Shown here piece by piece: positions 3,001-29,768 of a stretch of 29,812 bases of DNA. Source of the DNA: a virus. The position numbers were made by a program, and so were the translations under genes. The notes beneath the pieces were generated by a model that ran no database searches, was not told the DNA's origin, and was given only the letters and a program-made list of their open reading frames with translations. The first letter of the stretch is position 1, and the number at the start of each line of letters is the position of its first letter. Location of the stretch: positions 1-29,812 of the IMG/VR virus record IMGVR_UViG_3300021961_000431. One strand, given 5' to 3'.

Positions 3001-3815
3001 CCACCTTCCATCACAGCGTTCAGACCAAGAACAGTACGCGCCGCGTTAGTAGATGCAGCAGCGGTGGCGGCTTCAGCGCTTAAACCAGCCTCGGCCCCCC
3101 AAGCAAGAGTACGCATAGCAACTGCACGAGCAGCCATACCAATAGTGGCAAGCTGGGGTGCCATCTGTACAACCATTGAACCAGCAAGTCGAGGGTTAGT
3201 GACAACAGCCGCGAAGCTATCAACGAATCCTTTAGCATCTTCGAGTTCCTTTCTTTGTGCCTTCAACGCAGGGGACTGATCCTCCTGAAGCATTTGACGA
3301 CCCTCGGCAAGATTCTCTGTTCCTGTCTTGCCAGTGCGATCCTTGATTGCTTGGTCTATTGCACCGCCTGATACCAAGTTGGCAATCTCATAACCAGCAC
3401 CATAAAGCTGTAACCCGCCAATAGCAAGATCGTTGGCAGCGTCGCCCAAGAAGTTACCCTGAGGTTTAGACGTAGAAAGACCTGAGTCGGGGGTGTCCCG
3501 CTGGATTGATTCTTCGTAGGCTTTTAGGGGGTCAAACGTGGGAGCGGCGCTGGGGCCTGATGGGGAGGGCGCAATGCCTCGGCGTGTAGAGGAAGGGGAA
3601 GGGAGTCCAGTAGCCATTGCTTGATCGGCCAGCACACCCGGCTGGTAGTCTTGACCGATTTGAGCAGATGCGTACTGACCCGGAACATACTCTTTGCCAA
3701 TTGCTTGACGAGCAAATGCTCCGGGTTCGTACTTACCACTGGATATCGCTTGACCCTTTCTCCGTGTTTCGGTTCCTGCTTCGTTGGAAGTCTTATAGAT
3801 CGGAGAAGTTGCCAT
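1..3815 (-). CDS. Large internal virion-type protein with HExxH zinc-peptidase motif (3' end beyond window)
   Basis: Open from an ATG at 3815 to the window edge without a stop, at least 1271 residues. The start follows an AAGGA-type ribosome site and lies 10 bases after the upstream stop. Residues 27-68 hold three 14-15-residue repeats with a Y-x-PG core. A Gly/Ala-rich hydrophobic stretch around residues 420-435 could contact membrane. At residues 805-809 it reads HELFH, followed about 45 residues later by REEIVAD (E854/E855), the usual layout of a zincin (two His plus a downstream Glu as zinc ligands). The C-terminal third is Lys/Glu/Ala-rich and predicted helical. Very large proteins at the end of a podovirus virion operon are typically packaged in the head and ejected with DNA. 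That role, and peptidase activity against host or virion proteins, is inference. The C-terminus is not visible. Confidence 0.8.
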   Translation of the reverse strand, partial: MATSPIYKTSNEAGTETRRKGQAISSGKYEPGAFARQAIGKEYVPGQYASAQIGQDYQPGVLADQAMATGLPSPSSTRRGIAPSPSGPSAAPTFDPLKAYEESIQRDTPDSGLSTSKPQGNFLGDAANDLAIGGLQLYGAGYEIANLVSGGAIDQAIKDRTGKTGTENLAEGRQMLQEDQSPALKAQRKELEDAKGFVDSFAAVVTNPRLAGSMVVQMAPQLATIGMAARAVAMRTLAWGAEAGLSAEAATAAASTNAARTVLGLNAVMEGGMAGADSRTHILNMKEAELLKSPQYQELLKSGMDPFLARTKLANDASLVSTALAASISAIATKVTGADKLEAAILGRVANKVEQEVGKQTGMQVAKKFGFNVGRETIEETAQEGGAQFAQNVGGRTSGATPEVGLFEGVPEAAGAGGAMGLLAGAGFGGAKIATEKATDAVAAATAPADAPAYRGPTGGQLTAVEMSSAAGSPAFMAHLYATSDEETRIRLQNANPNLNLSQLSQDVDLVNQGSRIAANYPNFAPAFLNQLEGFDLEAARAEAAGVTRIAGPESLEDVKNLSELGRQEAGVGITTTPPPLSTDEETAVATDTGVRQIGDMSTEEIGLRLNGYKRRAQNLERLPENYRREQAELSVQEMVDQGFPETVARGVFSNLLGPSLETVLQEGGYGATEGVQELGDTGIPTDTQTQQEGAPPEPVSIVTEDGEYRMSDGSMSDDQFVQNIINWDNQRQGPGTSTTEDYEIIPTPPPLQRLAEAFGVQVKVWNYKGKNWIGQRQGISMGSGVIGINGGMTSQGGEFVVFGHELFHELTKRDPVSARVLMDLIEQYLDGDITTELKQKLREVGYKEGALREEIVADVLGVLFSEPSFWQGMARSQPTLLEKIIDIIDQMIQRMSNLGVREKMVKSAIKDLARVQGMMQAFLNDAIEQQSRGTSIEDNVSLNATQAEALQNVRTLLGEGKRSEAAAAFKSANLWKETGLNFNEIETQEAAKVAEPAVVEEAEVPLRRAQEDIDAENAKATYLEVTDLLRRGQTSQAAKAFKAGNLAAFGENFVEMSKQIAEESKKRVSQAQFQTEEQKRLSLKSRKATFEKQVDKVLSGVTKRVEETVAQRKGLAISQYKAARRAQAERRADELVGEAPPKSQFTDDAGMVMKLLAEVGALGQEAYVESQARQTSAEEQRAESDRLVEENAAIHNNRVSALLYNADRGLDQLAKIRQEMAAVGYNPTEIESIVAKAESDLKSLRDGELRTLAEEQLRDAKNLIRADTVA
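3612..3737 (-). repeat. Three short Y-x-PG protein repeats in the N-terminus of the large virion protein
   Basis: Residues 27-40, 40-54 and 54-68 of the large protein align as GKYEPGAFARQAIG, GKEYVPGQYASAQIG and GQDYQPGVLADQAMA. Conserved positions are G-x-Y-x-PG and a later A-x-x-A/I. A fourth, degenerate half unit (GQAIS) precedes them. They lie before a Pro/Ser-rich linker, so they may be docking motifs. The role is unknown. Confidence 0.7.
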
Positions 3816-6154: not shown

Positions 6155-6562
6155 TTACAAGAATCGACAATCTTTACGCCACAAGACATAGATGACTACA
6201 TCTCCACCGTCAGGTGCGGCACCCTTTAGCCGCGTTTCTTCTGTGAATCCAATCTTCTCTACAAGGGTTCGTGACTCTTTGTTAGTCTCGTCAACCCACG
6301 CAGATACCCTGTTTACTTTCAGTTGTCCGAATGGATAAAAAAAAGCCGCCTTCAATAGCGACTTGCTTATCCACTTCTTCCCCCTGCCAGCGCAGTGCAT
6401 GAAGATGTTCTTGCCTGTGAAGCCTTCGTAAAGAATGCCGCCTACGAGGCCACCATCTATTTCCCTACCTATACCTTGCATCCCAGCAGAATACATAACT
6501 GGCACCCCTAAGTCTTTCAGGAAGTGCCATACTCTATCTGGATCGTTGATTAACTTTTCCAT
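6155..6562 (-). CDS. GNAT-family N-acetyltransferase
   Basis: A 135-residue protein of typical single-domain GNAT size. Visible family features are the central strand-loop CAGRGKKW (around residues 57-64) in the acetyl-CoA pyrophosphate-loop position, and RVSAWVDETNKESRTLVEKI then GF (residues 85-106). That N-x-x-S-x-x-L-x-E-K-x-GF block is the classical GNAT C-terminal helix and strand. The enzyme would move acetyl from acetyl-CoA to an amine. The substrate cannot be read from sequence. Acetyltransferases embedded among short-tailed phage virion genes are known but little studied. Its ATG lies three bases after the upstream stop with no clear ribosome site, so it probably depends on coupling. 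Confidence 0.85.
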   Translation of the reverse strand: MEKLINDPDRVWHFLKDLGVPVMYSAGMQGIGREIDGGLVGGILYEGFTGKNIFMHCAGRGKKWISKSLLKAAFFYPFGQLKVNRVSAWVDETNKESRTLVEKIGFTEETRLKGAAPDGGDVVIYVLWRKDCRFL

Positions 6563-27271: not shown

Positions 27272-27346
27272 TGGTTGCGGGAGAAGGACTCGAACCTCCG
27301 ACCTCTGGATTATGAGTCCAGTGCTCTACCGCTGCGCTATCCCGCG
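27272..27346 (-). tRNA. tRNA with CAU anticodon (Met, or Ile if lysidine-modified), CCA encoded
   Basis: A full cloverleaf is drawn by eye. The acceptor pairs 27340-27345 with 27277-27271-side bases, apart from a terminal C1-A72 mismatch. The D arm has loop AGCGGUA, the anticodon stem is CUGGA/UCCAG with loop CUCAUAA (anticodon CAU at 27312-27314), and the T arm is GGAGG/CCUUC with loop UUCGAGU. Discriminator A and genomic CCA follow (27272-27274). No intron. C1-A72 is typical of bacterial initiator tRNA, but the three G-C pairs of initiators in the anticodon stem are absent. Elongator Met or Ile2 is therefore more likely. Confidence 0.92.
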
Positions 27347-28312: not shown

Positions 28313-28589
28313 GTAGGAGTTCTATTGCTACCTATCGGAGTTCTTAGCGTCCATTCTCCTTGTTTCCAGCGACAATCAGGGGTAATTGTTGCTATTTGTG
28401 GAACAATTAGACTCGCGTGCGGGAAGTCCCCTTGTTTTCATTAACTTTTTTGGAACTGACTAGGGTATCCCTTGTACCAATCTTCACCTTAATTCAATCA
28501 GCGCTACGCGCCCTTCTTTCCCTTCGGGAAGGTCGCTTCACTTTCCCTTTATATCAACGCTGTACTTTATCTTACTTAAGGAGTTCATC
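28313..28589. other. Divergent intergenic control region
   Basis: About 280 bases separating leftward and rightward genes. It holds an 8-bp inverted repeat (described separately) and a small hairpin, TTTCCC/GGGAAG, near 28520. The 28278-28308 stretch at its edge is G-rich on the + strand (four G-runs). A strong ribosome site AAGGAG (28578-28583) ends it. I see no sigma70 promoter on either strand that I would defend, and no ORF with a ribosome site of useful length. Confidence 0.5.
28383..28409. promoter_or_regulatory. 8-bp inverted repeat, candidate operator
   Basis: TAATTGTT (28383-28390) and AACAATTA (28402-28409) are perfect complements with an 11-base spacer, a centre-to-centre distance near two helical turns. 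It lies midway between the divergent genes, where a dimeric regulator controlling both directions would bind. No regulator gene is seen in the window. Confidence 0.45.
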
Positions 28590-28928
28590 ATGACTACATC
28601 TACACAAGTTCGTCCTATCACTGCAGCACAGAAGGCTCGTTTGATGGCTATGGCTGAGCGTGGCATCTTTGCTGGTGACATTCCTACTACCTCTTGGGAG
28701 GCTAGCTGGGCAATTCGGACATCTCCTGCTTCGAAGCGTGACAAGACTGAGTTGGCTGCAAAGGGTGGTCGAGTCTTAGCTCGTATGACTTCATCTGAGA
28801 TCGAGATGACTACTAAGGCTCTTCAGGCTTTGGATAAGCTCTCACGTTCTGGTTCTAAGGATGAGATGGTTATTGAGGCTGAGATCATCTTACGTGCCAT
28901 GTTTTGTGCTAAGGCTACTAATGCTTAA
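28590..28928 (+). CDS. Unknown 112-residue protein, first gene of the rightward block
   Basis: AAGGAG lies six bases upstream of the ATG. The protein (MTTSTQVRPITAAQKARLMA and following) is helical, Ala/Met/Lys-rich, with a segment SASKRDKTELAAKGGRV-like in its middle (residues 47-63) and a C-terminal helix MVIEAEIILRAMFCAKATNA. No known motif. Composition suits a small cytoplasmic or DNA-binding protein. Being first on the opposite strand suggests early expression. Confidence 0.75.
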   Translation: MTTSTQVRPITAAQKARLMAMAERGIFAGDIPTTSWEASWAIRTSPASKRDKTELAAKGGRVLARMTSSEIEMTTKALQALDKLSRSGSKDEMVIEAEIILRAMFCAKATNA

Positions 28929-28947: not shown

Positions 28948-28981
28948 GCGTCGGGGTGCCTGTTCTCAGGTTTCCCCGCGC
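28948..28981 (+). other. Nested hairpin after the 112-residue gene
   Basis: Outer arms GCG-U-CGGGG (28948-28956) and CCCCG-CGC (28974-28981) pair with one bulged U. Inside, CCUG/CAGG forms a 4-bp hairpin around UUCU. Internal loop UG/UUU. It starts 20 bases after the stop, without a U-tract, so it is not a standard intrinsic terminator. It could be a processing or stability element. Confidence 0.6.
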
Positions 28982-28997
28982 TAACCCTACATTTAAT

Positions 28998-29034
28998 CCT
29001 AAGGTCGCTAGCCGAAGCTAGGTAAATCCTTAGG
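28998..29034 (+). promoter_or_regulatory. Structured RNA element, copy 1
   Basis: Outer stem CCUAAGG (28998-29004) with CCUUAGG (29028-29034), 7 perfect pairs. Inner stem CUAGC with GCUAG (5 pairs) around loop CGAA. The stems are joined by UCG on the 5' side and GUAAAU on the 3' side. The junction bases are identical in copy 2 while both stems differ in sequence, so structure is conserved. Confidence 0.72.
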
Positions 29035-29036
29035 TC

Positions 29037-29078
29037 AGCGGGAGGTCGCCAGCTCAAGCTGGGTAAATCCTCCTTGCT
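29037..29078 (+). promoter_or_regulatory. Structured RNA element, copy 2, upstream of a ribosome site
   Basis: Outer stem AGC-GGGAGG (29037-29045) with CCUCCU-u-GCU (29069-29078), with one G-U and one bulged U. Inner stem CCAGC with GCUGG around UCAA. Joining bases are UCG and GUAAAU as in copy 1. Its 3' outer strand contains CUCCU (29070-29074), complementary to the AGGAG ribosome site (29090-29094) of the next gene, so an alternative fold could block translation. Confidence 0.72.
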
Positions 29079-29100
29079 GCTATCTTCTTAGGAGTCTTAC

Positions 29101-29370
29101 ATGTTTACTAACAAGGAAATGACATTCTATCGCTGGCTTCTAAGTGATAGCGATCTACCTGTCATCATCGGATGTCTGTTCTTGGCATTCGTAGCAGGTT
29201 TCGTAGTCTTCGGAGGCTGGGCTGTCGGCTGCATGTTCGTCGGCTTTGGCATGGGTGTTGGCTGTGGCTTACTCTGGAATGACTACCAAGAGTTCCGCAG
29301 GGATTGGGAGTTCCGTTACGAATTCGACACATGGGAGGAGTCATCATGGACTCAGAAACATTCTCGCTAA
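29101..29370 (+). CDS. Small membrane protein with two TM segments
   Basis: An 89-residue protein, start six bases after AGGAG. Residues about 19-38 (LPVIIGCLFLAFVAGFVVFG) and about 39-58 (GWAVGCMFVGFGMGVGCGLL) are hydrophobic, Gly-rich and contiguous, like a helical hairpin. The C-terminal 30 residues are charged (EFRRDWEFRYEFDTWEESSW). Unknown function; an early membrane protein such as a superinfection-exclusion factor is one possibility. Confidence 0.78.
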   Translation: MFTNKEMTFYRWLLSDSDLPVIIGCLFLAFVAGFVVFGGWAVGCMFVGFGMGVGCGLLWNDYQEFRRDWEFRYEFDTWEESSWTQKHSR

Positions 29371-29663: not shown

Positions 29664-29667
29664 TTTG

Positions 29668-29703
29668 GTGGGGGTTGGGGTTCTTCCAGCCTCCACTTTT
29701 TTT
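29668..29703 (+). terminator. Intrinsic terminator of the small-gene cluster
   Basis: GTGGGGG (29668-29674) pairs with CCTCCAC (29690-29696), including one G-U, and seven U residues follow directly (29697-29703). This fits a Rho-independent terminator closing the rightward transcript before the next gene. Between it and 29769 there is only a 5-bp hairpin (ATCAC/GTGAT near 29720) and a ribosome site. Confidence 0.85.
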
Positions 29704-29768
29704 CAGCGTTCGCTCGTCTCATCACCGAGGGAGTGATCGCTCCGTGCTTACTTCAATGGGAGGAAACA

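Follow-up and report, generated by a model that had tools for sequence, protein, structure and literature searches.

When two closely similar hairpins follow one another in a phage operon, the question is whether the pair forms a functional RNA and, if so, what it acts on. We addressed this question for an uncultured viral contig of 29,812 nt (IMG/VR record IMGVR_UViG_3300021961_000431; this whole stretch is hereafter the window), whose structural genes lie on the - strand and whose rightward genes form a short set on the + strand.

Fold and conservation of the tandem hairpins

Unit 1 (28998-29034, + strand) reads CCUAAGG-UCG-CUAGC(CGAA)GCUAG-GUAAAU-CCUUAGG and unit 2 (29036-29079, + strand) reads CAGCGGGAGG-UCG-CCAGC(UCAA)GCUGG-GUAAAU-CCUCCU-(U bulge)-GCUG. 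The one unpaired nucleotide between the stems (29035, + strand) is a U in all 8 distinct sequences described below. Both units fold as an outer helix, UCG, a 5-bp stem with a 4-nt loop, GUAAAU and the returning outer helix; each stack has 12-15 pairs, and the asymmetric internal loops (3 x 6 nt) are identical in the two hairpins. The spacing from unit to unit is 41 nt and the two hairpins together span 82 nt (28998-29079). A pattern allowing 3 mismatches matched the window exactly twice, at the two units, and never in 100 shuffles. The 181-nt region around them folded at -66.2 kcal/mol (z = -5.0), a value equaled by none of 200 shuffles, and the units folded singly gave z = -3.2 and -3.8. The pattern scan and the folding against shuffles thus bear out a first-pass annotation of this DNA, which had described two tandem units with this fold and the same single-stranded joins, UCG and GUAAAU, in both. 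Its layout of the units also stands, except that the outer helix of unit 2, drawn as GGGAGG/CCUCCU, is longer: CAGCGGGAGG pairs with CCUCCU-(U)-GCUG to form 10 pairs with one bulged U, in agreement with RNAalifold.

A pattern scan of IMG/VR, with the second unit read loosely for tandem spacing, recovered the tandem in 13 further contigs, all with the 41-nt spacing, for a total of 8 distinct sequences (window included). Paired cells made up 95.8% of the alignment of these sequences, and 7 of the 27 pairs varied on both sides in a compensatory manner (12 cells). The covariation score was 0.208 compared to 0.119 in shuffles (0 of 500 reached 0.208) and fell to 0.000-0.089 when the partners were slid. 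UCG and GUAAAU were invariant in both units across all 8 sequences and the end loops differed (CGAA, AGAA, UCAA, CUAA, ACAC). Because the internal loops are invariant while tetraloops and helices vary, the surface that is recognized is probably the internal loops. The pair 29040/29074 is A-U, G-U or G-C on the + strand; the G-U forms, which the opposite strand would read as A-C mismatches, favor RNA of the + strand. Two homologues are partly degenerate. Unit 2 of contig L012 has lost the inner stem in register, with a shifted 4-bp CUAG/CUAG stem as a possible substitute, and unit 1 of L004 has three broken outer pairs. These results leave us highly confident that the element is a structured RNA under selection, as the first-pass annotation had proposed, naming homologues with further covariation and constant UCG/GUAAAU as the support to look for.

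The annotation could not assign the element to a known class, nor could we: no Rfam 15 covariance model matched at the gathering threshold or even at E<=5, and no hallmark of a known ribozyme was recognized in it. A looser tandem pattern, using the invariant letters only, added no further convincing member. Single-unit matches in 20 extra viral contigs were rejected, none being tandem; some of them (L051, L061 and others) passed a loose filter with 4 of 5 inner pairs and 3-4 outer pairs and were taken as chance. There was no copy among the INPHARED phages and none above chance in Pelagibacter phage Hodr, Methylophilales phage MEP301, Burkholderia phage BcepC6B and five element-free relatives. 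In a bacterial genome collection, the tandem pattern gave 32 matches, all of them simple repeats, coding repeats or chance, and 768 bacterial genomes around a lake betaproteobacterium yielded 3-mismatch matches only (18 compared to 11 in the reversed control). By the libraries searched, the element is a new and narrow phage RNA family.

Carrier phages and position in the operon

The carriers are uncultured, podovirus-like phages. The terminase encoded in the window shares 47% identity with its counterpart in Pelagibacter phage Hodr, 46% with that of MEP301 and 42% with that of BcepC6B. The group is probably temperate, because the contig of a larger relative (L013) encodes a tyrosine integrase, a helix-turn-helix repressor-like protein, a primase-helicase and ERF. 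A T7-like RNA polymerase (PF00940) was not detected in six contigs, a weak negative given that the control set could not give a signal. The window also has a tRNA-Met gene (CAT anticodon; 27272-27346, - strand) among its leftward genes, and tRNAs are present in L007, L153 and L155. Nearly all relatives keep, in the rightward operon, an Amidoligase_2 protein (PF12224) beside a weakly GATase_4-like protein (for example, L003 673-3287, - strand, and L010 6514-7995, + strand).

As an anchor for comparing relatives we used the first gene of the rightward operon, c12 (28590-28928, + strand; 112 aa), which had no Pfam or PHROG match. After the stop of this upstream gene comes hairpin A (28952-28978, + strand), CGGGG-U-GCCUG(UUCU)CAGGU-UU-CCCCG; its occurrence in relatives with and without the element marks it as a neighbor rather than as part of the module. 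In every contig where the context is visible, the element follows c12 on the strand of the operon, no more than several hundred to ~1000 nt into the rightward operon. The usual order is c12, hairpin A and then the element directly, with extra small ORFs before the element in L004 (one) and L012 (two). Other intergenic sequences recur in these phages. A conserved non-coding block, GACTCGCGTGCG...TTTTTTGGAACTGACT, precedes the first rightward gene in both lineages (28400-28480 in the window, and in relatives) and is a possible promoter or operator. The motif ATCGYTCCGTGC recurs after terminator hairpins and soon before ribosome-binding sites (at 29742 in the window, in L012 and in relatives). 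A CGTGC-containing intergenic motif and hairpin A were considered as repeated modules.

The gene that follows the element in the window encodes a small hydrophobic protein of 89 aa (29101-29370, + strand), a membrane protein by inspection, and the first-pass annotation had linked the hairpins to it and named homologues upstream of similar genes as support. This link was not supported by the comparison: the genes 3' of the element are unrelated between phages, the 89-aa protein is not a constant partner, and L004 and L012 have their additional ORFs. Hence, the element does not serve as leader to any one type of gene. The annotation's reading as a tandem ligand-binding riboswitch, or as a protein-binding operator of the next gene, would explain conserved tandem loops with covarying helices and the frequent location just ahead of the next gene's ribosome-binding site. 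A cis-acting regulator is, however, expected to stay with one gene, which the element does not; furthermore, a terminator-like hairpin stands between the element and the next gene in L001, G002 and G004, and there is no Rfam class to assign it to. We give this reading very little credence.

Terminator-like hairpins are found ~120-700 nt 3' of the element on the same strand. In the window, a strong intrinsic-terminator-like hairpin followed by a T run (29667-29697, + strand; -20.9 kcal/mol) lies in the same operon at +665 from the element. The offsets are +122 in G002 and L001, +432 in G004, and ~+430 to +700 in L010, G001 and G005. The hairpins were identified with a terminator finder in the window, G002 and G004 and by eye in L001, L010, G001 and G005. 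Terminator counts on the operon strand were no higher than on the other strand.

Exchange and loss of the module

Each genome carries the element once, and the part of the operon that it occupies is constant; its ends are abrupt and conserved (AATCC ... GCTGCTA). The window and L002 have elements that are 98% identical next to c12 genes that are only 63% identical, while the element of L001, the sister of the window by c12 (82%), is 81% identical. Averaged over all pairs, identity was 86% in the element, 70% in c12, 46% in the 60 nt upstream and 33% in the 100 nt downstream. These differences between element and flanks show that a module of ~87 nt has moved between lineages without its flanks. 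The module is also sometimes lost. Contigs L078 and L010 encode c12 proteins that are 96% identical; L078 has no element and keeps at the joint the letters CTAC, the last of the element, probably as a deletion scar. An exact empty site is present in L083, which reads TTTTAACCCGTTATCAGGAG where L003 reads TTTTAACCCGTTATCA-[element]-TTATCAGGAG; the filled site in L003 is flanked by TTATCA on both sides, and no target duplication was visible in the lineage of the window.

The sharp boundaries, the 98% identity across lineages with unlike flanks, the empty site and the TTATCA repeats would suit a non-autonomous mobile DNA element whose hairpins a transposase or recombinase would recognize in single-stranded DNA, in which case the conservation would reflect recent spread. 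Against this reading stand the single copy per genome confined to one operon region and the lack of copies elsewhere in the viral and bacterial contigs searched, and TTATCA could be a coincidence or a deletion repeat. The compensatory changes and the constant tandem register imply lasting selection. We consider mobile DNA highly unlikely.

The hairpins could also be a site for processing or stabilizing mRNA, where RNase III would cut them or where they would protect an RNA end, in either case splitting off the message of the first gene. Consistent with such a site, the hairpins sit between genes of one polycistronic unit, in most cases immediately behind c12 and another hairpin, and their stems contain an asymmetric internal loop. 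Stacks of 12-15 pairs are, however, short and a poor fit for RNase III. Specific recognition is indicated by loop letters that stay invariant while the helices vary freely, and a processing site would have no need to be transferred as a conserved tandem unit. We regard a processing site as quite unlikely.

The intergenic slot of the element holds a different, second structured segment in L153 (~3383-3450) and L007 (~6210-6290, - strand), with the common sequence TAACGGGAG..TAGCT..GTGGCAA. A pseudoknot could form in L153, where the hairpin loop GGGAGC can pair with a downstream GCTCCC. The segment was found in these two viral contigs only and had no Rfam match above chance.

Such a slot, together with the loss and exchange of the element between lineages and the lack of a fixed downstream gene, would be in keeping with an accessory function in trans. 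The hairpins could be cut from the operon transcript and act as a small RNA or decoy that binds a host or defense protein through its two like sites and might, for instance, inhibit a nuclease or an RNA-guided defense. A terminator within ~50 nt after the element in L001 and G002 also fits; against this reading, most of the phages do not have a terminator directly after the element and no promoter of its own is evident. Mimicry of a CRISPR repeat found no counterpart either: no related repeat was recovered with the tandem pattern in the bacterial genome collection or with the unit pattern in the 768 genomes, a weak objection because the sample may not include the host's. On balance, a decoy seems unlikely to us, although less so than a processing site; both are serious rivals to the reading that follows.

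A possible action on host RNA polymerase and its known counterparts

We searched for a partner encoded by the phages themselves. No protein family was present in all element-bearing genomes and absent from the element-free ones. Phyletic profiles yielded a single candidate, a small HTH protein, which was rejected because phages lacking the element have it too. An antisense target for the GUAAAUCC loop was also rejected, with one 8-mer match in the window and nothing consistent in relatives. Because no phage gene family tracks the element, a host partner is more likely.

As the best of the readings considered, though still less likely than not, we tentatively propose, by analogy with the put RNA of phage HK022, that the nascent RNA may act on the host RNA polymerase. 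Once transcribed, the two hairpins would fold side by side across their one-nucleotide joint and their internal loops would serve as docking sites for a host factor. The most likely one is the transcribing RNA polymerase itself, which would then read through pauses and intrinsic terminators further down the operon. The anatomy of the element and its position near the operon start, ahead of terminators, are consistent with such a role. So is the missing phage partner, since a host factor would take that role. Furthermore, the identity of the downstream gene would be immaterial to an action on the polymerase, and the module moves alone, which a self-sufficient element would be able to do. The main objection comes from the element-free L078, L083, L153 and L075, which keep comparable downstream terminators; thus, the presence of a terminator does not by itself require the element. 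The equal or lower terminator counts on the operon strand and the absence of sequence similarity to put also speak against it. In its broader form, the proposal is that a protein-free RNA, exchanged horizontally and with an origin separate from that of put, reprograms the host RNA polymerase or another host machine through two like docking sites in its internal loops; we consider this conceivable but doubtful. Either a second RNA of the put kind or a structured RNA traded among phage genomes in the manner of an accessory gene would indicate that small RNAs are passed on as functional units of their own. Clear mutants for a direct test follow from the two-unit design and the invariant internal loops.

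Among known systems, the nut sites of lambda are likewise RNA signals in a phage operon transcript upstream of terminators, but no boxA or boxB-type loop was noticed in the element and no phage partner protein tracks it. RNase III sites split the early transcript of T7. Those of T7-like early transcripts resemble the element as imperfect intergenic hairpins in a phage polycistronic transcript, whereas the element has shorter helices, invariant loop letters and a fixed tandem register. Tandem riboswitches (glycine, mini-ykkC/guanidine-II type) also join two small similar RNA units, but the element has neither a fixed downstream gene nor an Rfam match and carries its conserved letters in the internal loop rather than in the end loops.

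The put RNA of HK022 is the best-studied RNA that alone alters elongation by bacterial RNA polymerase, and suppresses termination by binding directly to the enzyme (beta' zinc-binding domain). It has two stem-loops in ~70 nt and needs no phage protein, and putR lies ~270 nt from its promoter (PMC9378689). The listed annotation of HK022 (L148, NC_002166) has no putL or putR feature, and we located both at ~27.7-29.6 kb by their mutual similarity on opposite strands (GTCGGGAGCGCGGCGGGTTCAGG / GTCGGGTGCCCGGCGTGGTCAAGG). A model of the element (R1) had no match in HK022 24000-36000, the region that holds the sequences identified here as putL and putR. The stems of put are unlike each other and stem I holds a triplex (PMC9378689); in contrast, both hairpins of the element have one common internal loop. 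The likeness is in the design: two closely adjacent stem-loops with internal irregularities (82 nt here), placed early in a phage operon ahead of terminator-like hairpins, and no dedicated phage protein apparent. If the proposed action on the polymerase is correct, the element would be a second compact RNA of the put kind, unrelated to put, that alters RNA polymerase.
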